The translations under genes were made by a program, and so were the position numbers. The notes beneath the pieces are model-generated. The model had not been told where the DNA came from. It saw nothing but the letters and a program-made list of their open reading frames with translations, and searched no databases. From Pelagibacteraceae bacterium AG-365-D07 (GTDB taxonomy: Bacteria > Pseudomonadota > Alphaproteobacteria > Pelagibacterales > Pelagibacteraceae), in the NCBI GenBank assembly GCA_003280005.1, contig QCGH01000003.1, positions 1 through 64,000 on the forward strand: a stretch of 64,000 nt of DNA, in the 5' to 3' direction. Shown here piece by piece: positions 3,317 to 18,869 of this stretch; the first letter of the stretch is position 1, and each line of letters begins with the position of its first letter.

Positions 3317-4452
3317 AAAAAATATCATACACTTTTTTTTTTTTGATATTCATTTTATCTAATTTCAAAATATTATTAGCGAATGAAACTGATATTTACA
3401 AAAAAATTGACTTGTTCAGTGAAGTCTTAGAAAAAATAAATAAAGAATATGTAGAAGATATAAATCAAAGTGATGCTATGGATGCTGCAATTAATGGGGT
3501 GTTGCAATCATTAGATCCTTATTCCTCATACATGTCTCCTGAAATGCTTAAAGAAATGCAAACAGAAACTAAAGGTGAGTTTGGTGGATTGGGTATTGAG
3601 GTAGGTATGGAAGCAGGAGTAGTAAAAGTAATTTCTCCCATCGATGGTTCTCCTGCAGAGACAGTTGGTGTTAAAGCTGGAGACTACATTGTAAAAATCG
3701 ATGGTATACAAGTTCAAGGAAAAACCTTATCCGAAGCTGTTGATTTAATGAGAGGTCCAGTTGGTAGCGAAATTGAAATTACAGTAAGAAGAATTGGTAC
3801 TAAAAAAGCTCTAACTTTTAATATTGTTCGTGATATTATTGAAATCAAATCAGTTAAATCAAAAGTATTAGAAGACAGTATAGGATATGTAAGATTAACA
3901 TCTTTTAATGATAACAGCTCAGATCAACTTGAAGATATTGTTAAAGATTTTAAAAAAAATAAAAATATAGATAAATATATTTTAGACTTACGGAATAATC
4001 CTGGAGGATTATTAAATCAAGCAATTAGAATTACAGATTTCTTTTTAGATAATGGTGAAATAGTTTCTACAAAAAGTAAAAAAAAATCAGATAATCGAAA
4101 ATGGTTTGCAAAAAAAGGTGACTTGATTAATGGAGATACTTTAATAGTACTTATAAATTATGGGTCTGCTTCAGCATCAGAAATAGTTGCTGGCGCTTTA
4201 AAAGATCACAAAAGAGCAATCATACTTGGAGAAAGTTCTTATGGTAAAGGTTCAGTTCAATCAATAATTTCTCTAAAAAATAATGGAGCAATTAGATTGA
4301 CAGTTTCTAAGTATTATCTTCCATCTGGAGACTCAATATCTGAGGTTGGAGTTAGTCCAGATATCTTTATAGCTGAAAGTTCAGATGAATTTAGAATTGA
4401 TACTGATACTGATAATCAATTAGAGTTTGCATTAAAATTACTTAATGGATAA
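3313..4452 (+). CDS. ctpA: C-terminal processing peptidase (S41), PDZ-containing, with signal peptide
   Basis: N-terminal hydrophobic signal, PDZ GLGIEV..GSPAE, NYGSASASEIVAGALKDHKRA, GKGSVQ catalytic region. Confidence 0.93.
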   Translation: MKKISYTFFFLIFILSNFKILLANETDIYKKIDLFSEVLEKINKEYVEDINQSDAMDAAINGVLQSLDPYSSYMSPEMLKEMQTETKGEFGGLGIEVGMEAGVVKVISPIDGSPAETVGVKAGDYIVKIDGIQVQGKTLSEAVDLMRGPVGSEIEITVRRIGTKKALTFNIVRDIIEIKSVKSKVLEDSIGYVRLTSFNDNSSDQLEDIVKDFKKNKNIDKYILDLRNNPGGLLNQAIRITDFFLDNGEIVSTKSKKKSDNRKWFAKKGDLINGDTLIVLINYGSASASEIVAGALKDHKRAIILGESSYGKGSVQSIISLKNNGAIRLTVSKYYLPSGDSISEVGVSPDIFIAESSDEFRIDTDTDNQLEFALKLLNG

Positions 4453-4918
4453 AAAATTTAGTAATTTACCACTTAGAAAAGGTGTAGGAGTGGCTTTATT
4501 AAATAAAAATAATCAAATATTTGTAGCAAAACGAATTGATAATCCAGATGATTTTTGGCAAATGCCACAAGGTGGAATAGATAAAGGAGAAGATCCTTTA
4601 AAAGCTGCTTACAGAGAATTAAACGAAGAGACAAGCATAAAAACCGTAGAATTAATTCAGGAAATTGAAGATGAAATAACCTACCATCTACCAGATAACT
4701 TGTTGGGCATTATTTGGAAAGGGAAATTTAAAGGACAAACTCAAAAATGGTACATTATGAGATTTTTAGGTGAAGATAATGAAATCAATCTAAATACTAA
4801 GCACCCTGAATTCTTAGAGTGGAAATGGATTAACTATGAAAATATCACAGATAAAGTGGTTAAATTTAAGCTTCATGTATATGAAAAAATTAAAAATGAA
4901 TTAAATAAACTAATTTAG
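4445..4918 (+). CDS. rppH: RNA pyrophosphohydrolase (Nudix)
   Basis: RKGVGVALLNKNNQIFVAKR, Nudix box GGIDKGEDPLKAAYRELNEETS. Confidence 0.93.
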   Translation: MDKKFSNLPLRKGVGVALLNKNNQIFVAKRIDNPDDFWQMPQGGIDKGEDPLKAAYRELNEETSIKTVELIQEIEDEITYHLPDNLLGIIWKGKFKGQTQKWYIMRFLGEDNEINLNTKHPEFLEWKWINYENITDKVVKFKLHVYEKIKNELNKLI

Positions 4919-5307
4919 ACTTAAAGATTTTAATACTTCAACCTTTTGAGAAATAATAAATCTTTTTTGATCATCAAGTTTGTCGCTGGAAAGATCTTTC
5001 TCTGCTTCCTTAATCATATCTTGAATTTTAGATTTATCAGAGTTTTTTATATCAAAAATATTACTAGTCAGTATAGAAAGAGTATTATCTTTGAATTCCA
5101 CTATTCCATCATCTACATAAAAACTATTTTCTTCATTCCCTGAGCTAATTTTTATGATACCCGGTTTTAAAAATGAAATAATTGAAATGTGATCTTTCAA
5201 GATTCCCATTTCACCTTCAAAAGCTGGCACAACTACTTCTTTAACGTTATCTTTTTTTAAGAAAGATTTTTCCGGACTAACAATTTCTAAATTAAAATTT
5301 TCGCTCA

Positions 5308-5308
<1 letters not shown>
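4910..5308 (-). CDS. atpC: ATP synthase F1 epsilon subunit
   Basis: SPEKSFLKKDNVKEVVVPAFEGEMGILKDH; downstream of atpD. Confidence 0.93.
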
Positions 5309-7604
<2,296 letters not shown>

Positions 7605-7609
7605 ATTTT

Positions 7610-9142
7610 TTAATTAAAGTTTTTTTTAAGTTCAACAATCAATTCAGTTAGTGCTTTTTCACTATCTTCCTCTAACTTTCCAGAAGCGTTAATTGAATTA
7701 ATTATATCTTGCTTTTCTGATTTACATTTTTCGATAATTTTATTTTCAAAATTCCCTATATCTTTTTGTTCAATATCGTCTAAATAACCTCTAACACCAC
7801 AGAAAACTGAAATTACTTGTTCCGCAACTGTCATCGGTGAATATTGTCTTTGTTTTAGAAGTTCAGTTAATTTTGAACCTCTATTTAATAGTTTCTGAGT
7901 AGATGCATCTAAATCTGAACCGAACTGAGCAAATGCTGCCATCTCCCTGTATTGTGCCAGCTCAAGTTTCATTGAACCTGAAACTTTTTTCATTGCTTTA
8001 GTTTGTGCTGAAGATCCAACTCTTGACACTGATAATCCCACGTTAATTGCGGGTCTTATACCCTGGTTAAAAAGTTCAGTTTCTAAGAATATCTGGCCGT
8101 CTGTAATGGAAATCACGTTTGTTGGTATAAAAGCTGAAACGTCTCCTCCTTGAGTTTCAATTATTGGAAGTGCCGTAAGAGATCCACCACCATGTTCATC
8201 ACTTAATTTTGCGGCCCTTTCAAGTAGTCTGCTATGAAGATAAAATACATCTCCCGGATATGCTTCTCTTCCCGGGGGCCTTCTAAGCAATAATGACATT
8301 TGTCTGTATGCCACAGCTTGTTTCGAAAGATCGTCATAGATGATAAGTGCGTGCATTCCATTATCTCTAAAATATTCTCCCATAGCGCAACCTGTATATG
8401 GAGCTAAAAACTGAAGAGGAGCAGCATCTGATGCAGTTGCGGCAACAATTGTTGTGTATTCCATTGCTCCAGCTTCTTGTAAAGTTTTTTCTATTTGCCT
8501 TACTGTTGATCTTTTCTGACCTATTGCAACATATACACAATATAATTTTTGTTTTTCATCACCAGACTCATTAATTTTTTTTTGGTTAATTATTGCATCA
8601 ATTGCAACTGCTGTTTTTCCAGTTTGTCTATCTCCAATAATTAATTCTCTTTGGCCTCTTCCAATAGGAACCAAACTATCAATTGATTTCAATCCAGTTT
8701 GCATTGGTTCACTCACTGATTTCCTTGGAATAATTCCTGGTGCTTTAATTTCAACCCTGCTTCTTTTTATATCTTTATCTAAAGCTCCTTTACCATCTAT
8801 AGGATTTCCTAATCCATCAACTACTCTTCCTAATAATTCTTTTCCGACTGGAGTATCAACAATTGCTCCAGTTCTTTTTACAGTGTCTCCCTCTTTTACA
8901 GCTCTATCATCTCCAAATATTACAACACCAACATTGTCACTTTCCAAGTTTAGTGCCATTCCTTTAGATCCATCAGAAAATTCTACCATTTCTCCAGCTT
9001 GAACATTGTTCAAACCATATATTCTTGCAATACCATCGCCTACTGATAGCACTTGTCCAACCTCTGATACCTCTGCCTTGTCACCAAAGTTTTTTATTTG
9101 TTCTTTTAGTATCTTTGTAACTTCTGAAGGATTTATTTCCAT
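7610..9142 (-). CDS. atpA: ATP synthase F1 alpha subunit
   Basis: [22 protein letters not shown]-equivalent core; [25 protein letters not shown]. Confidence 0.99.
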
Positions 9143-9803: not shown

Positions 9804-11762
9804 CTAATTGAAGCTAATTGGGTCAACATCAACTATTAGTTTTATTCCACTTGTAGACTTATGGATCTTAAGAATTTCAGACAATTTTTTTTGAATATTC
9901 ATATCCTTTTTTGCTCTAATTAAAATTCTGTTTCTATAATTCCTTTTAATTTTAAATATTGGAGCCTCTACAGGCCCAAGAACCCTGCAGTTTAAATTTT
10001 TGTTTAATTTCTCTTGTAAGATGAACGATTCTTTTTTTAACTTATCCTCGTCTGGTGATGTAATTATTATACCAATAAATCTTTCGAATGGAGGTAGTGA
10101 GTAGTTTTTTCTTAAGATTAATTCTTTATCTAAAAATAGAAAAGGATCTTCATCAGTAATTTGAGAAATTATATCTGAGTTTATATTATAAGTTTGAAAA
10201 TAAACCTTAGCAGGCTTGCCAGCTCTGCCTGCTCTACCAGAAAGCTGGTGGTATAATTGTAAGTTTTTTTCAGCTGCACGTAAATCGTGTCCTTGTGATG
10301 TTAGGTCAATATCCAAAACAACAATACAATTTAAATTAGGAAAATGAAATCCTTTAGAAACCATCTGGGTTCCAATAAGAATATTAATTTTATTTTCAAT
10401 AATATCATCTAATATTTTTATTGATGATTTTTTATTCATTGTATCGCTTGAAAAAATTACCGACTTATATTCTGAAAAAATTGATTTTACTTCCTCTGAT
10501 ATTTTTTCAACTCCTGGACCAGAAAAGGCTAATTCGCATTTTTTATCATCAATACAATTTCTATCTAAACCTGTTTTATATCCACAATAATGACAGAGTA
10601 ACTGATTTTTTTTTTTATGAAAAACGAGATTTATTGAACAATTAGGACAAGAAAAAACATTAATACATTTTTTACATAATACAAAAGGAGAAAACCCTCT
10701 TCTATTTAAAAAAAATAAAACCTGATCTCCTTTATCTAAATGTGATTTTACTTTTTCAATTGTCTTTGAAGAAATCCACTTTTGTTTTACTAAATTATAT
10801 TTTTTTAAATCAATTATTTCATGATCTGGTAGATTAGCATCTTTATATCTATTAATTATTCTTGAGTATTCATATTTTTTTAATTTGATATTATTGTATG
10901 TTTCCAGAGAAGGAACTGCGCTTATAAGGTTGATGGGAACATTCTCAAACTTCGCTCTAGAAATTGCCATATCACGTGCATTATAAATAACTCCTTCATC
11001 TTGCTTGTAGGATTGATCATGTTCCTCATCTACAGTGATTAAACCTAAATTATTAAATGGTAAAAATAATGCTGATCTTGCACCTATAACAACTTTAATT
11101 TTGTTTGAAGATAATCCACTCCAAATAATTTTTTTATTTTTTTTTGTAATAGATGAGTGCCAAATAGCAGGTTTAAAACCAAAAAAATCGATAAATTTTT
11201 TTTCAAAATCATTTGTCAAACCTATCTCTGGTAATAAAATCAATGCTTGATACCCTTCTTCAATTTTTTTCTTAATTGCATTAAAGTATACAATTGTTTT
11301 ACCTGATCCCGTAGTTCCTTGAAGAACATGCGTCCTAAATTTTTTATCTTTTATTATTAAATCTTTGTATGCATAATGTTGTTCTTTACTTAATTCATAT
11401 TTGTTTGATTTAAAGTTATCATTAAATTTCAGATATTCTTTATCTTTCAAACTTTCTATAGCTTCACCGCTTAATAAATGAAGCTTTAAAGCCATACCCT
11501 TTGGCACAATATTGTATTCTGAAAACCAATTTAAAAATTTTATGGTATTTATTTTTAACCTAGGAATCTGTAAGGTTTTTTTTATTTTTTTTATTTTAAA
11601 TTTTTTTCTGTTTTTTTCTTTTTCAAATTGGTCCCAAACAACACCAATTGCTTCACTTTTTCCAAATGATACTATCACATATTGCCCAATTTTAGCCTGT
11701 TCGCTAGACTCATAGGTAAAAGGATGATCAAAAATATTAGGTAATAAAACAGGAATTTTCAT
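9804..11762 (-). CDS. priA: Primosomal protein N' (replication restart helicase)
   Basis: GTTGSGKTIVYF, DEEHDQSYKQDEG, zinc-binding Cys pairs, LIGTQMVSKGFHFPNL, LSGRAGRAGKP. Confidence 0.97.
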   Translation of the reverse strand: MKIPVLLPNIFDHPFTYESSEQAKIGQYVIVSFGKSEAIGVVWDQFEKEKNRKKFKIKKIKKTLQIPRLKINTIKFLNWFSEYNIVPKGMALKLHLLSGEAIESLKDKEYLKFNDNFKSNKYELSKEQHYAYKDLIIKDKKFRTHVLQGTTGSGKTIVYFNAIKKKIEEGYQALILLPEIGLTNDFEKKFIDFFGFKPAIWHSSITKKNKKIIWSGLSSNKIKVVIGARSALFLPFNNLGLITVDEEHDQSYKQDEGVIYNARDMAISRAKFENVPINLISAVPSLETYNNIKLKKYEYSRIINRYKDANLPDHEIIDLKKYNLVKQKWISSKTIEKVKSHLDKGDQVLFFLNRRGFSPFVLCKKCINVFSCPNCSINLVFHKKKNQLLCHYCGYKTGLDRNCIDDKKCELAFSGPGVEKISEEVKSIFSEYKSVIFSSDTMNKKSSIKILDDIIENKINILIGTQMVSKGFHFPNLNCIVVLDIDLTSQGHDLRAAEKNLQLYHQLSGRAGRAGKPAKVYFQTYNINSDIISQITDEDPFLFLDKELILRKNYSLPPFERFIGIIITSPDEDKLKKESFILQEKLNKNLNCRVLGPVEAPIFKIKRNYRNRILIRAKKDMNIQKKLSEILKIHKSTSGIKLIVDVDPISFN

Positions 11763-11867
11763 TTAATTTAGTTTAAATCATATTATATAAAATATGTATT
11801 TAAGATCGAGAATGTATTGTTCTTTATACAATCTTTTCAGAATCAAATAAATGATATAATAAGAATT

Positions 11868-13568
11868 ATGTGTGGTATTGTAGCTTTATTCAGCAAAAAA
11901 CTTTATAGAGAAGATTTAAATTTTGCAAAGACCGCTCTAAGGACAATTGCACACAGAGGTCCCGATAACAGAAGTTTAATAAATTATAATAATAGATGTA
12001 TTTTAGGACACAATCGCCTTTCAATAATTGATCTAAATAAAAATTCAAATCAGCCTATGGAAAATAAAAATTTTTCATTGGTGTATAATGGAATGTTGTA
12101 CAACTATATTGAATTAAAAAAAGAACTTCAAAGGAGAAATTATCTTTTTAAAACAAATTCTGACACCGAAGTTATACTTAATTCATATATGGAATGGGGT
12201 GTTAGCTCATTTAAAAAATTTAGAGGAATGTTTTCTATTGTTATATATGACTTAAAAAAACATAAAATTATATTTTCAAGAGATCACCTTGGTATTAAAC
12301 CGCTTTATTATAAAATTGTAAAAAAAAAGATATTTATTTGTTCTGAAATCAAACCTCTTACAGAAATAGATAATATTAAATATAACGACAAGGCAATTTA
12401 TAACTACTTAAAACACGATTTCTATGAAACTCAGGAAAATACTTTTTTTAAAAATATATTTCAAGTAATGCCTGGTTATGCTTACATTTATAAACTTAAT
12501 TCAAAATTTAAAAAAGAAAAGTATTGGTCTCTTTATGAGACAATTAAGAATAATAAAAATTATTTTAGTTTGAAAAAGACAAAGTTGATTTTAAAGAGTC
12601 ATTTTAAAAATATTTCAGAGATGTATATTAGATCAGATGTTAAAAGCGGTTTACTTTTATCCTCAGGTATAGACTCAAATGTTCTTAAAAAAATATTAGA
12701 AACCAAATATAAAAATTTAAATTATTTTACTTTTGGTTTTAAAAATTCAAATAATGACGAGATAAAAAAAATCAAATTACATAAAAAAAAACGCCAAAAT
12801 CATCATACACAAAGATATGACCTTAAAAAAACTTTGCACAATCTTAATTTCATTCAAAAAGTTCAAGAAATGCCATTTGGAGGGTTTAACGTTGTATTTC
12901 TAACTTTGTTAATGAAAATTGCTAAAAAAAAAGGCAACAAAGTGATGTTTATTGCAGACGGCGCAGATGAATTATTTGGTGGATATAAAAAATATTCGAA
13001 ATGTAATATTAATCAAAAAGATTATTACCTTAGGTCAATTGATGGTACAAAAAGTGAAAAACTATATATAAAAAATAATTTTGAAAAAAAATTCAAACAC
13101 AAAATTTCAATTAAATATCCTTCAAAAAATAATTTAATTAATCAAAGATACTTTGATTTTGTTTATAATAAACTCCCAAGAAACTTTAGATTTTCAGATA
13201 GATACAGTATGATAAATTCAATTGAATTAAGATATCCGTTTTTAGATTATAAACTAGTGGAAGACTCCTTTAGAATAAATCCAAAACATTTAATTAAAAA
13301 TGATAATTATAAAAAAATTATTACCGATATTTTTAATATTAAACAGAAAAAACAACATTTAAATAGTCCCCAAATAGATTGGTTTTATAATATAAAATTT
13401 AAAAAATTTTTATCTAGTAAATTAAAAAATTCTGCCATATTTAGCAAATATCTTGATAAGAAAAAAACAATGAAACAAATAGAAGAATATTATAATTCAA
13501 AATCAAAAAATTCTTTTCATATTTGGAAAATATTAAACTTACATTTATTTTTAGAATTATATAAATAA
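11868..13568 (+). CDS. Asparagine synthase-like glutamine amidotransferase (class II GATase plus AANH synthetase domain); start moved from 11817 to ATG 11868
   Basis: MCGIVALF places the Cys nucleophile at position 2; HRGPDNR, HNRLSIIDL, LLSSGIDSN PP-loop, DGADELFGGYKKY, ELRYPFLD. Confidence 0.9.
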   Translation: MCGIVALFSKKLYREDLNFAKTALRTIAHRGPDNRSLINYNNRCILGHNRLSIIDLNKNSNQPMENKNFSLVYNGMLYNYIELKKELQRRNYLFKTNSDTEVILNSYMEWGVSSFKKFRGMFSIVIYDLKKHKIIFSRDHLGIKPLYYKIVKKKIFICSEIKPLTEIDNIKYNDKAIYNYLKHDFYETQENTFFKNIFQVMPGYAYIYKLNSKFKKEKYWSLYETIKNNKNYFSLKKTKLILKSHFKNISEMYIRSDVKSGLLLSSGIDSNVLKKILETKYKNLNYFTFGFKNSNNDEIKKIKLHKKKRQNHHTQRYDLKKTLHNLNFIQKVQEMPFGGFNVVFLTLLMKIAKKKGNKVMFIADGADELFGGYKKYSKCNINQKDYYLRSIDGTKSEKLYIKNNFEKKFKHKISIKYPSKNNLINQRYFDFVYNKLPRNFRFSDRYSMINSIELRYPFLDYKLVEDSFRINPKHLIKNDNYKKIITDIFNIKQKKQHLNSPQIDWFYNIKFKKFLSSKLKNSAIFSKYLDKKKTMKQIEEYYNSKSKNSFHIWKILNLHLFLELYK

Positions 13569-13574
13569 TTAAAA

Positions 13575-14273
13575 ATGAAAAATATTCTATGTTTAATACC
13601 TGCCAGAAAAGGTTCAAAAGGAATAAAAAATAAAAATTTTTTAAATGTAAATGAAAAAATGATAATCCAATACACTATAGATAGTGCAAAAAAGATAAAA
13701 AAATATTGCGACATTGTAATATCTTCCGACTCAAGAAAAATTATAGAAATTTGTAAGTTAAATAACTTAGATTTTCATGGCCTAAGGCCAAAAAAACTTA
13801 GCGGTGATAAAGCTCAAACTATTGACGTAGTAAACTACGAGTTAAAAAAAATCGAAAAAAAATATAAAAAAAAATATAAATTTATTTTAATTTTACAACC
13901 TACGTGTCCATTTAGGAATTTAAAAGATTTAAAACTCGCTATTAAAAAAATTTCTTCAAAAAAATATGACTCAGTAGTTTCGGTTAAGGATGTTAACGAG
14001 TATCATCCCTTGAGAATGAAAATTATTAAGAAAGGTTATTTAGTTAACTACACAAATATGAAAAGAGAAAATTTTGTACCAAGACAATATTTGCCAAAAA
14101 TTTATATTAGATCTGGATCAATATATTTACTAGAAAGAGATGTTTTGCTTAAACACAAATCTCTTGTTGGCAATAAATGTTTTGGATTAGTCTTGGGTGG
14201 TAAACAAGCCTTAAATATTGATACTAATTCGGACTTAATATACTTTAAGGAGACTGTTGGAAAATTTAAATAA
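13575..14273 (+). CDS. neuA: Acylneuraminate cytidylyltransferase family (CMP-nonulosonate synthetase)
   Basis: LIPARKGSKGIKNKN, YTIDSAKK, VISSDS, LQPTCPFR, VVSVKDVNEYHP; followed by neuB- and neuC-like genes. Confidence 0.88.
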   Translation: MKNILCLIPARKGSKGIKNKNFLNVNEKMIIQYTIDSAKKIKKYCDIVISSDSRKIIEICKLNNLDFHGLRPKKLSGDKAQTIDVVNYELKKIEKKYKKKYKFILILQPTCPFRNLKDLKLAIKKISSKKYDSVVSVKDVNEYHPLRMKIIKKGYLVNYTNMKRENFVPRQYLPKIYIRSGSIYLLERDVLLKHKSLVGNKCFGLVLGGKQALNIDTNSDLIYFKETVGKFK

Positions 14274-14312
14274 CTTTTAATTAAAATATTAAAAAGTTGA
14301 TATTATAATAAC

Positions 14313-15284
14313 ATGAGAGTGCTGTTACTTGATTATAAACAATATAGTAAAGAAAATATTTTAAGGCTAGAAAATAACTTTACTGAGGTTTATAAAAAAA
14401 ATTTTTCTAGCATTGTGGGACTTAAAAAATTTCTAAGGGACAAAAAGGAAAGCAAAAAACCGATTAGTATTATATTTACTTCGTTTGGTTTTTATTTTGA
14501 TAAAAGCTTAATAAAATATATGGATAACAAAAAAAGGATTCTAGCTAGCCCTACTACATCATTAACACATATCGATTATAATAATTTAAAAAAAAACTGT
14601 AAGATTTTAAGTTTGAAAGATAGAAATACAAAAGTAGTATTAAAAAAAATAACATCAACAGCAGAACTTACTATAGGTTTAATTCTTAGTCTCTATAGAA
14701 AAATAAATGAAGCGACAAAGAGTGTAAATCAAAAACGTTGGGATAGAAATTCTTTTATTGGAAATCAGGTGTACGAAAAAAAAATAGGAATAATTGGTTT
14801 TGGAAGGATAGGGAGAATGGTTGCAACTACTCTTAAGGGTATGGGTGCAAAAATATATCTATACGACAAAAAAAAAATTCGTATTCCAAAAAGTTATATA
14901 AAAAAAAATATTTTTTATATTTTTAAAAATTGTGACATTATTTCTTTACATATAAGTTCTGAAAAAGAAAATTATAAATTTATAGGAAGAAAATATCTTA
15001 AATTAATGAAAAAAAATTCTATTATCATTAATACAGCAAGAGGTGAAATAATAGATGAAAATTTTTTGTATAAAATTCTTAAGAAAAAGAAAATAAGTGG
15101 CGCTGGATTAGATGTTTTGATTGGTGATAGTAAATGGAAAAAAGTTGGAAATAACAAACTAATAAATTTTTCAAAAGCAAATAAAAATTTGATTATTACA
15201 CCTCATATTGGTGGTTGCACATTTGAAGCCTCAAAATTAACAAAAACAAAATTAATTGATAGTGTTATAAATATTTCAAAATGA
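14313..15284 (+). CDS. D-isomer-specific 2-hydroxyacid dehydrogenase family protein
   Basis: GIIGFGRIGRMVATTLKGMGAKIYLYDKK, NTARGEIIDENFL, GAGLDVL, ITPHIGGCTFEA. Confidence 0.88.
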   Translation: MRVLLLDYKQYSKENILRLENNFTEVYKKNFSSIVGLKKFLRDKKESKKPISIIFTSFGFYFDKSLIKYMDNKKRILASPTTSLTHIDYNNLKKNCKILSLKDRNTKVVLKKITSTAELTIGLILSLYRKINEATKSVNQKRWDRNSFIGNQVYEKKIGIIGFGRIGRMVATTLKGMGAKIYLYDKKKIRIPKSYIKKNIFYIFKNCDIISLHISSEKENYKFIGRKYLKLMKKNSIIINTARGEIIDENFLYKILKKKKISGAGLDVLIGDSKWKKVGNNKLINFSKANKNLIITPHIGGCTFEASKLTKTKLIDSVINISK

Positions 15285-16318
15285 TAAATTTTAATAAAAT
15301 TAAAAAAAAATTGATATGTGCTGAAATTGGTCTTAGCCATCACGGTTCAATTAAAAAAACAAAAAAAATTATTGATAAGTTAAGTTTGACTGGAGCTGAC
15401 ATTGTTAAATTTCAAACACATATTGCTGAGCATGAATCTACATATAATGAAAAATTTAGAAAAGGGTTTAATTTCAAGTCAAAAACTCGTTATGATTATT
15501 GGAAAAAAAGTGAATTTACAAAATCGCAGTGGCTTCAAATAAAAAAGTACTGCACCAAAAAAAATCTTATTTTTTTAAGCTCACCTTTCTCTGTTGAAGC
15601 CGTTAAACTATTGAGTTCAATTGGTCAAAAAATGTGGAAAATTGGTTCTGGAGAATTTTTTTCTAATGATCTTAATAATTATATCTATAAAAAAAAAAAC
15701 CCGATTATAATTAGCACTGGTATGTCCAGTATTTCTGAAATTAATTTAAAAATTAAAGAGTTAAAAAAAAATAATGTTAAGAATTTTATTATTTTACAAT
15801 GTACCAGCAAATATCCCGTTCCACTTGAAGAAGTTGGTATAAATGTCATAAAAGAGTTATCAAAGAAGTATAATTGTCCTGTTGGATTATCTGACCATTC
15901 AGGAACTATCTATCCATCATTGCTTGCGATAAGTGACGATACAACAAAACTAATTGAAGTACATATAAGTGAAGAAACAAACTTAAGGAATCCTGATAGA
16001 AAAGCTTCGATTAATTTTGAAGATTTAAAGCTTTTGTGTACTTATAGAGATAAAGTAGAAATATTAAAAAAAAATAAAGTCAACAAAAATAAAATTGCAA
16101 AAGATCTTTTAAATATTAGACAGTTATTTACTAAAAGTATTGCTCCTAAATATAATTTAAAGAAAGGAACATTGCTTACTAAAAATAATCTTACTTTTAA
16201 AAAACCTGGAAATGGAATACAAATACATAAGTTAAAAAAAGTCCTTGGAAAAAAAACTAGAAAGAATATTTCTAAACACTTTCTACTAAAATGGAGTGAT
16301 ATTGAAAAACAAAACTAA
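15281..16318 (+). CDS. neuB: NeuB-family nonulosonate (sialic/legionaminic/pseudaminic-type) synthase
   Basis: CAEIGLSHHG, ADIVKFQTH, SPFSVEAV, KIGSGEF, IISTGMSS, C-terminal SAF-like domain. Confidence 0.9.
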   Translation: MINFNKIKKKLICAEIGLSHHGSIKKTKKIIDKLSLTGADIVKFQTHIAEHESTYNEKFRKGFNFKSKTRYDYWKKSEFTKSQWLQIKKYCTKKNLIFLSSPFSVEAVKLLSSIGQKMWKIGSGEFFSNDLNNYIYKKKNPIIISTGMSSISEINLKIKELKKNNVKNFIILQCTSKYPVPLEEVGINVIKELSKKYNCPVGLSDHSGTIYPSLLAISDDTTKLIEVHISEETNLRNPDRKASINFEDLKLLCTYRDKVEILKKNKVNKNKIAKDLLNIRQLFTKSIAPKYNLKKGTLLTKNNLTFKKPGNGIQIHKLKKVLGKKTRKNISKHFLLKWSDIEKQN

Positions 16319-17468
16319 AATTGCGGTTGTAATAAACAATAGAGCAAATTATGCCAGAATAAAAAGCTTTTTAAAAGAGGCACAAAAAAACTCTAAAGTA
16401 GAGTTAAAAATTATTTTAGCAGGTTCTAGTCATTTAGAAAAATTTGGAAATATATCTAACATTTTAAAAAGAGATGGTATTAAAATTGATTTTAAACTTC
16501 ATACTGTTGTTGAAGGAAATGATCCACTTTGTATGGCCAAAACTACATCTAATACTCTAAGTGAAGTTTCTACTGCACTTTCTTCAATTGATCCGGATGT
16601 CGTTATAGTGATTGCGGATAGATATGAAAATTTAGCTGTTGCTATAGCCGCTAGTTACATGAATTATACGCTTGCACATATTCAAGGTGGAGAAGTAACT
16701 GGATCAATAGATGAAAGTGTAAGGCATGCAATTACTAAATTATCACATATACATTTTGTTTGTACAAAAAGGGCTAAAAAGTTTTTAATAAAAATGGGAG
16801 AACAAAAAAAAAATATCTATTTAACTGGTTGTCCATCACTAGACTTTATTAAAAATCTTAATAAGAGAATTGATAAAAAATTTCCAAAGAGGAATCCTTA
16901 TGCTGGTGACAAAATATCATTTAAGGATGAATATATAGTTTTCTTATTTCACTCAGTAACGACGCAATTTAAAGAAAATAGAAAGTTTATTAAAAACTTA
17001 ATTAAATCAATTAAGTTTTTTAATAAAAATTATCAAGTTGTTATATTATGGCCGAATATCGATGCTGGAACAGACTTTATATCAAAAGAAATTAGAATAT
17101 TAATGAATTCTAAGAGGATAAATTCAATTGCTACTTATAAGAATTTCTCGCCTGAAGACTATGTTAGATTAATTTATAATTCAAAATGTTTGGTTGGAAA
17201 CTCATCTTCAGGAATAAGAGAGTCTTCATATATGGGTTTACCTGTTGTAAATATAGGTAAACGACAACAACATAGAGAAAGAGGAAAAAATGTAATTGAT
17301 GTTGATAATTCATCAACAAAAATAATCAGTGCAATTAAATTTCAATTAAACAAAGGGAAATATAAAAAAGAATATATTTACGGAAAAGGCGGTGCAGGTA
17401 AAAAAATTCTTAGTTTATTATTAAAATCCAAAATAGAAATTCAGAAAAAATTAAATTACTTAAACTAA
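16296..17468 (+). CDS. neuC: NeuC-family hydrolysing UDP-HexNAc 2-epimerase; GTG 16296 or TTG 16302 start
   Basis: VVINNRANYARIKSFL, ADRYENLAVAIAA, HIQGGEVTGSIDESVRHAITKLSHIHF, GNSSSGIRES, VNIGKRQQHRERG. Confidence 0.88.
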   Translation: MILKNKTKIAVVINNRANYARIKSFLKEAQKNSKVELKIILAGSSHLEKFGNISNILKRDGIKIDFKLHTVVEGNDPLCMAKTTSNTLSEVSTALSSIDPDVVIVIADRYENLAVAIAASYMNYTLAHIQGGEVTGSIDESVRHAITKLSHIHFVCTKRAKKFLIKMGEQKKNIYLTGCPSLDFIKNLNKRIDKKFPKRNPYAGDKISFKDEYIVFLFHSVTTQFKENRKFIKNLIKSIKFFNKNYQVVILWPNIDAGTDFISKEIRILMNSKRINSIATYKNFSPEDYVRLIYNSKCLVGNSSSGIRESSYMGLPVVNIGKRQQHRERGKNVIDVDNSSTKIISAIKFQLNKGKYKKEYIYGKGGAGKKILSLLLKSKIEIQKKLNYLN

Positions 17469-18869
17469 CTAAGAGTGTATCTGACGTTTTTCTATAGATA
17501 AAGCAGCTTCTTTTACTGCTTCTGAGAAGGTTGGATGTGCATGACAAGTGCGAGCTATATCCTCAGAGCTAGCACCAAATTCCATTGCTATAGCAATTTC
17601 TGCAATTAATTCTCCTGCATGAGGACCAATAATATGAACTCCAAGAACACTATCAGAATTAGTGTCTGCTAAAAATTTTACAAATCCTTCTGGTTCATCA
17701 ATCGCCTTAGCTCTAGAGTTTGCCATAAAAGGAAATTTTCCAACTTTATAATCTATTTTTGCTTCTTTAAGTTGTTCTTCTGTTTTACCAATTGAAGCGA
17801 CTTCTGGTGAAGTATAAATAACTCCAGGGATTATATCATAATTTACATGACCAGACTGACCTGCAATGATTTCTGCAACAGCTATACCTTCTTCTTCAGC
17901 TTTATGAGCTAACATTGGACCTTGAATAACATCTCCAATAGCATAAATATCTTTAATGTTTGTTTGAAAGTTTTTATTTATTTTAATTCGTCCTTTTTTG
18001 TCTGTCTCAACTCCGATTTTATCTAAGTTTAAATTACTTGTATTTGGTTTTCTTCCAACAGAAACGAGAACTACATCACATTCAAATTTCTTGTTATTAC
18101 CTTTGTTGTCACTAGTATTTACAATAATTCCACTTTTATTTTTTAAAATACTTTCTACTTTTGTATTTAAATTAAAATTAATCCCTTGTTTCTTAAGTAT
18201 TTTTTGAAATTCATTAGAAATTTCTTTATCCATGCCAGGTGTAATGTGGTCAAGAAATTCTACAACCTGAACTTCAGACCCTAGTCTTGACCAGACAGAT
18301 CCCATTTCTAACCCAATATATCCTCCACCAACTACAACTAATTTTTTAGGAACATTTTTTAAAGAAAGAGCGCCCGTGGACGAAACTATTTTTTCCTCAT
18401 CAAATTTAACACCTGGCAAAGATACTGGATCAGAACCTGTTGCTATAATAATATTTTTCGCCTCTATATTTTCCTTTTTGTTATCTTTAGATATTACTGA
18501 TATTTGATTATTTTCAGTAATTGAACCTATGCCTTTGAAATAAGTAACTTTATTTTTTTTAAATAAAAATTCTATTCCCTTAGTTAAAATTGTTACTGCT
18601 TTTTCTTTATTCTTCATCATTTTAGGAAGATTTAACTTTAAAGAACCAATCTCTATTCCAATTTTTTCAAAGTTTTTTGCCTTATGAAAATTTTCAGATA
18701 AATTTAATAGACTTTTTGAAGGAATACATCCTACGTTTAAACATGTTCCACCTAATGAACCCCTAGACTCTACGCATGCTGTTTTTTTTCCAAGTTGAGC
18801 TAACCTGATAGCGCAAACATATCCACCTGGTCCACCTCCAATAACAACTGCATCAAATTTTTCTGACAT
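17469..18869 (-). CDS. lpd: Dihydrolipoamide dehydrogenase
   Basis: VVIGGGPGGYVCAIRLAQLG, GGTCLNVGCIPSK, VGGGYIGLEMGSVW, CHAHPTFSEA. Confidence 0.97.
   Translation of the reverse strand: MSEKFDAVVIGGGPGGYVCAIRLAQLGKKTACVESRGSLGGTCLNVGCIPSKSLLNLSENFHKAKNFEKIGIEIGSLKLNLPKMMKNKEKAVTILTKGIEFLFKKNKVTYFKGIGSITENNQISVISKDNKKENIEAKNIIIATGSDPVSLPGVKFDEEKIVSSTGALSLKNVPKKLVVVGGGYIGLEMGSVWSRLGSEVQVVEFLDHITPGMDKEISNEFQKILKKQGINFNLNTKVESILKNKSGIIVNTSDNKGNNKKFECDVVLVSVGRKPNTSNLNLDKIGVETDKKGRIKINKNFQTNIKDIYAIGDVIQGPMLAHKAEEEGIAVAEIIAGQSGHVNYDIIPGVIYTSPEVASIGKTEEQLKEAKIDYKVGKFPFMANSRAKAIDEPEGFVKFLADTNSDSVLGVHIIGPHAGELIAEIAIAMEFGASSEDIARTCHAHPTFSEAVKEAALSIEKRQIHS

Follow-up and report, generated by a model that had tools for sequence, protein, structure and literature searches.

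A probable nonulosonic-acid cassette at a recurrent insertion site between lpd and priA in a Pelagibacter-like genome

The stretch of DNA analysed here (the window; positions 1–64,000 of one contig) belongs to a metagenome-assembled genome (MAG) of 1.05 Mb in 31 contigs, about 85% complete, the gene content and size of which point to an assignment to SAR11/Pelagibacter. Between the minus-strand core genes priA and lpd, the window carries five open reading frames (ORFs), all on the plus strand, which span 11868–17468 in the order AsnB–NeuA–HADH–NeuB–NeuC, where HADH is a D-2-hydroxyacid dehydrogenase. This block, which probably serves the synthesis of a cytidine monophosphate (CMP)-activated nonulosonic acid (NulO), is the subject of this report. 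The first-pass annotation had described a five-gene plus-strand block between these core genes, and every ORF was found at the position it had been given. The features of the locus are as follows.

9804–11762, minus strand: priA, the core gene of the left flank, a 652-residue ORF with orthologues (61–68%) in genus-mates, where it mostly adjoins lpd.
11763–11867, unstranded: divergent priA/asnB intergenic region containing the priA-proximal junction of the insert, from sequence and junction comparison.
11806–11819, minus strand: CAATACATTCTCGA, which resembles the lpd 3′ end in degenerate form and is a possible attachment-site (att) relic, matching 13/14 positions of CAATACTTTCTCGA in genome G302.
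11868–13568, plus strand: AsnB-like class II glutamine amidotransferase, 566 residues (GATase_7 and Asn_synthase; TIGR01536, 337 bits).
13575–14273, plus strand: NeuA-like CMP-NulO cytidylyltransferase, 232 residues (CTP_transf_3; best PDB matches to CMP-NeuNAc synthetases).
14313–15284, plus strand: D-2-hydroxyacid dehydrogenase (HADH), 323 residues (2-Hacid_dh_C, E value 1.4e-46).
15281–16318, plus strand: NeuB-family NulO synthase, 345 residues (PF03102 and SAF; residue map).
16296–17468, plus strand: NeuC, a GNE-like hydrolysing uridine diphosphate N-acetylglucosamine (UDP-GlcNAc) 2-epimerase, 390 residues, GTG start (TIGR03568; GNE; tree).
17469–18869, minus strand: lpd, the core gene of the right flank, with a 3′ end (approximately 17469–17483) that is an attachment-like site for elements in relatives.

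All five gene assignments are backed by both Pfam and NCBIfam. The genes are closely packed, with spacings of 6 bp (AsnB and NeuA) and 39 bp (NeuA and HADH) and overlaps of 4 bp (HADH and NeuB) and 23 bp (NeuB and NeuC), and the stop codons of NeuC and lpd directly adjoin one another. The ATG at 11868 (MCGIV) is taken as the correct start of AsnB because it provides Cys2, which class II glutamine amidotransferases need; the longer ORF starting at TTG is an over-extension. The guanine and cytosine content of the block is 24.2%, compared with 30.9% in the rest of the window, and no other 5.7 kb of the window is lower. On both sides the conserved gene order continues, as atpH–priA to the left and as lpd–sucB–sucA to the right.

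The same interval was followed across relatives by locating priA in genus-mates and measuring the gap between lpd and priA, which gave 43 informative genomes including that of the window. The gap is empty (20–36 bp) in 27 of the 43 and holds an insert in 16 (window included). In the sister genus g4, where lpd ends in CAATTCATTTTTAA or a sequence near it rather than in CAATACACTCTTAA, it is empty in all 30 genomes examined. The difference in occupancy between the two genera gives a Fisher P of 8e-5, which becomes 1.6e-3 when each cargo type is represented by a single genome; these values are rough, related genomes not being independent. The inserts span 0.7–9 kb, and their contents in genus-mates are a TylF-type methyltransferase (four genomes), an FkbM methyltransferase, a TPR-sulfotransferase, TPR/GT41, GT4 with an epimerase and DegT, DegT with an epimerase and WbqC, PrsW (G333) and an integrase element of 8.8 kb (G328). 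The single-contig genome G078 carries a DMSP_lyase-domain cupin alone (L079, G078:C1:14000-24900, locus 10194-10778), and two further genomes (G324 and G327; L082/L083) carry an EgtD-like histidine methyltransferase with a PhyH-family protein and a methyltransferase. In G301 (L069) the insert, which has a repeat of the lpd end, encodes a 1531-residue AAA-domain protein (locus 3339-7934) that could be a defence gene. The priA–lpd gap is thus a recurrent insertion site in the Pelagibacter genus, filled with unrelated cargo. The earlier suggestion that the block is an accessory insertion is borne out, as lpd and priA adjoin in most genus-mates and the block is neither syntenic nor universal. Elsewhere in the genome of the window, a Phage_integrase-family gene overlaps an unknown gene near glycosyltransferases (L148, G000:C4:4900-6584), which marks another possible cargo site.

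The score of NeuC against TIGR03568 (NeuC/NnaA) is 363 bits, above the curated cut-off of 236, and its best match in the PDB is human GNE (E value 1.7e-70), ahead of the diacetylbacillosamine epimerases 5xvs and 5zlr; the pairwise scores are 243 bits for GNE and 169 bits for 5xvs. In a FastTree phylogeny it clusters with GNE and with the NeuCs of three other SAR11 loci (L003, L004 and L006). NeuB contains both PF03102 (E value 1.1e-56) and the SAF/antifreeze-like domain PF08666 (E value 4.8e-06), and by score it is 73 bits nearer to the NnaB equivalog than to the PseI equivalog (TIGR03586; 196 bits, under the cut-off of 340). Alignment of 33 sequences to the Neisseria NeuB structure 1xuu shows that the catalytic and metal-binding residues are kept (Neisseria numbering: E25, K53, Q55, K129, S132, E134, S213, H215, E234, H236 and D247). 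NeuA has CTP_transf_3 (PF02348, E value 1.1e-17) and the motifs PARxGSKG and LQPTxPxR. Judged by these profile matches and residues, NeuB, NeuC and NeuA are genuine NulO-family enzymes, in agreement with the families to which the first-pass annotation had assigned them. This NeuB is the only one found in the genome assembly. No copy above 42% identity occurs among 297 family genomes, a scan of genome contigs yielded a single distant locus (Neomarinimicrobiota, 33%), and tblastn against phages and plasmids gave matches of only about 24–34%.

The dehydrogenase is a recurring partner of NeuA rather than a stray gene, since its closest SAR11 relatives mostly adjoin a NeuA-like gene and are once fused to it. 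In a search of 247 family genomes, relatives of HADH adjoin a NeuA-like gene in G069, G149, G209 and G156, and in G013 the two form one 576-residue protein with CTP_transf_3 and 2-Hacid_dh_C (L130, G013:C1, locus 6776-8506). Other top matches (G198, G023, G167 and G048) have no NeuA neighbour, so the NeuA-linked dehydrogenases are a subset of a large family. The order NeuA–HADH–NeuB of the window recurs in G156, where an AsnB-like gene (32%) lies downstream, and AsnB adjoins NeuB in G209. A second NulO-linked arrangement was observed in G257 and G231 (L085 and L086), where HADH lies beside an ATP-grasp-like gene and NeuB, with a PylC-like N-terminal domain in L085. The AsnB of the cassette is probably not the housekeeping enzyme, because a second, stronger Asn_synthase match lies on another contig of the genome (G000:C5).

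Taken together, the cassette is best read as an accessory set for a CMP-activated NulO of the GNE/N-acetylneuraminic acid (Neu5Ac) type that occupies, as cargo, a lineage-specific insertion site at the 3′ end of lpd, a reading to which we give a probability of roughly 0.7. In this pathway NeuC would convert UDP-GlcNAc to N-acetylmannosamine (ManNAc) or a close relative, NeuB would condense the product with phosphoenolpyruvate to a nine-carbon 2-keto acid and NeuA would activate this acid with cytidine triphosphate. The type of NeuC favours such a route to a Neu5Ac-type sugar over one to legionaminic or pseudaminic acid, and neither the ORFs nor Pfam place any LegB/LegC/PseB/PseC-type gene within the block. 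As tailoring steps, AsnB may amidate a carboxyl group with glutamine nitrogen, and HADH may reduce or oxidise a 2-keto/2-hydroxy acid, for example to furnish a hydroxyacyl group. The sugar would finally pass from its CMP-activated form onto a surface glycan through glycosyltransferases encoded at unlinked loci; glycosyltransferases, DegT enzymes and sugar-nucleotide genes sit on other contigs of the genome.

Several observations weigh against this reading. NeuB scores 269 bits against the NnaB equivalog TIGR03569, under its cut-off of 399.65, and its substrate-contacting SAF-domain residue Arg314 is replaced by lysine and Asn29 by serine. The best NCBIfam match of NeuA is PseF (TIGR03584), at 119.5 bits, under the cut-off of 205.7. 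DegT aminotransferases and nucleoside diphosphate-sugar dehydratase-type (Polysacc_synt_2-like) genes elsewhere in the genome make imported legionaminic or pseudaminic precursors possible. No transferase has been identified: the sialyltransferase family GT42 (PF06002) had no match in the genome, but its control also matched nowhere, and GT52, GT80 and GT38 were not searched. At the site itself, the window insert holds no integrase, only the five genes, and no arm repeats, and the similarity of CAATACATTCTCGA to the lpd end of the window itself does not reach significance (P = 0.29 for the best match). With regard to position 314, lysine is also found in the closest SAR11 relatives (the NeuBs of L003, L004 and L006), and arginine in 26 of the 33 aligned sequences. 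PMC6795526, citing earlier work, describes Arg314 as contacting ManNAc and the R314K mutant of Neisseria NeuB as partly active, unlike R314A; since R314K retains activity, lysine here is compatible with ManNAc but does not by itself define the product.

How the cassette arrived is a separate matter, on which the inserts of relatives bear. Two integrase elements of about 9 kb each lie at the lpd 3′ end, in G328 (L077, G328:C1:169000-178300) and in G405 (L096, G405:C1:290000-309000), the latter having been found via its integrase, outside the 43 genomes surveyed for the gap. Both begin just past the lpd stop codon with an integrase (PHROG 1), the two integrases being 60% identical, and both have DNA polymerase and terminase-small-subunit-like genes, recognised by Pfam in G328 and by eye only in G405. 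No structural genes were recognised in the part of their proteins that was scanned, and the elements are possibly SAR11 phage satellites; searches of annotated phages and of viral contigs with the lpd-site integrase gave no match. In G328, G301 and G333 the lpd end CAATACACTCTTAA is repeated before priA, right ahead of the original intergenic sequence, and these genomes have in common four CTTGGTA repeats after lpd. No integrase was recognised in the G301 and G333 inserts, and the exact lpd-end repeat was not found at the G405 element. G302 carries unrelated cargo and has CAATACTTTCTCGA at the position that CAATACATTCTCGA takes in the window; the 13/14 identity of the two sequences is suggestive only. 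The pattern CAATACWTTCTCGA was rejected as independent support, its five matches in 300 genomes being the two source sequences and three in unrelated coding sequence.

It stands at about even odds that the cassette entered the gap by homologous recombination across the conserved flanks, or by illegitimate recombination, and not by site-specific integration; this concerns arrival only and is compatible with the Neu5Ac-type pathway proposed above. The lack of an integrase, arm repeats or a significant core in the window insert is consistent with such a route, as is the lack of the repeat at several other inserts of the site (L044, L045 and L063–L065), and PMC4033161 reports that islands at the O-chain cluster of Pelagibacter are exchanged through homologous recombination. 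However, the same site is used by integrase elements, the lpd end is repeated in three inserts, the window and G302 have the 13/14 motif in common, and the site is empty in genus g4, whose lpd 3′ end differs. More tentatively, the lpd 3′ end may serve a family of small SAR11 integrase elements as attachment site; this family, itself or through non-autonomous relatives, would have brought the cargo-only inserts (the NulO cassette, the DMSP-lyase-like gene, the EgtD-like methyltransferase set, the sulfotransferase and the glycosyltransferases). Were this so, the cassette would be mobile surface-sugar cargo, and its NulO pathway one that requires both dehydrogenase and amidotransferase. For the cassette itself, mobility is a lead that falls short of a result.

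With regard to the product, a legionaminic- or pseudaminic-type acid is unlikely. In such a pathway the substrate of NeuC would be a diacetylbacillosamine nucleotide, supplied by dehydratases and aminotransferases from other parts of the genome, and the nearness of NeuA to PseF, the lysine of NeuB at Arg314 and the DegT and Polysacc_synt_2-like genes are all consistent with it; however, NeuC is clearly nearer to GNE than to 5xvs, NeuB is nearer to NnaB than to PseI, and the precursor genes lie outside the block. It is rather improbable that the product is a different CMP-activated acid and no classical NulO, with HADH acting directly on a 2-keto or related acid and the Lys314 NeuB acting on a non-N-acetyl sugar. 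It is favoured by the five SAR11 loci that join HADH to NeuA through linkage or fusion, in some of which the stretch read contains no NeuC, and by the spread of lysine across the NeuB subclade, but all four Lys314 NeuBs of the subclade accompany a GNE-like NeuC, which indicates an N-acetylhexosamine, and the R314K mutant retains some activity (PMC6795526). A misplacement of the block in a chimeric assembly, conceivable in a MAG fragmented into 31 contigs, was judged very improbable, as conserved gene order continues on both sides and inserts occur at the identical point in other genomes.

Three results go beyond the first-pass annotation: HADH as a partner of NeuA, the GNE-type (ManNAc) NeuC route and the recurrent priA–lpd insertion site. 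SAR11 bacteria rank among Earth's most abundant cells and are under heavy phage predation, which makes it important how they vary their surface sugars. The cassette, in which a NulO core of three enzymes comes with a new pairing of dehydrogenase and amidotransferase in a minimal genome, constitutes a testable pathway, and the lpd–priA site, a short gap that is mostly empty and otherwise holds single-trait cargo or small integrase elements, allows streamlined genomes to be studied for gene gain. A literature search gave no title or abstract on the site or the cassette in SAR11/Pelagibacter; it did not cover full texts and is no proof of absence.

Compared with the bacterial sialic, legionaminic and pseudaminic acid clusters, the block has the same NeuC–NeuB–NeuA core, compact arrangement and conserved NeuB catalytic residues, but also encodes a D-2-hydroxyacid dehydrogenase and an amidotransferase of the AsnB type, has lysine for Arg314 in NeuB and contains no acetyltransferase, transferase or exporter. 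The epimerase domain of human GNE (PDB entry 4zht) is the best solved-structure match to NeuC, strongly over 5xvs, although the window enzyme is bacterial and without the kinase domain. The SAR11 glycan clusters with NeuB (G156, G069, G149, G013, G209, G257 and G231) likewise have HADH near NeuA and/or NeuB, with AsnB in two; however, they are larger, do not lie between priA and lpd, and their NeuBs are about 28–37% identical to that of the window. Inserts in some relatives resemble tyrosine-integrase elements at gene 3′ ends, such as satellites and small islands, in the lpd-adjacent integrase, the duplicated lpd end, the terminase-small-subunit-like and DNA polymerase genes and the lack of a recognised structural gene, whereas the window insert is without an integrase or clear repeats. 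Finally, the locus is similar to the replacement flexible genomic islands, or hypervariable regions, of Pelagibacter in holding exchangeable surface-glycan cargo between core genes; the O-chain island, as described in PMC4033161, is large and lies by the rRNA operon, whereas the site described here is the 3′ end of lpd, with inserts of 0.7–9 kb.

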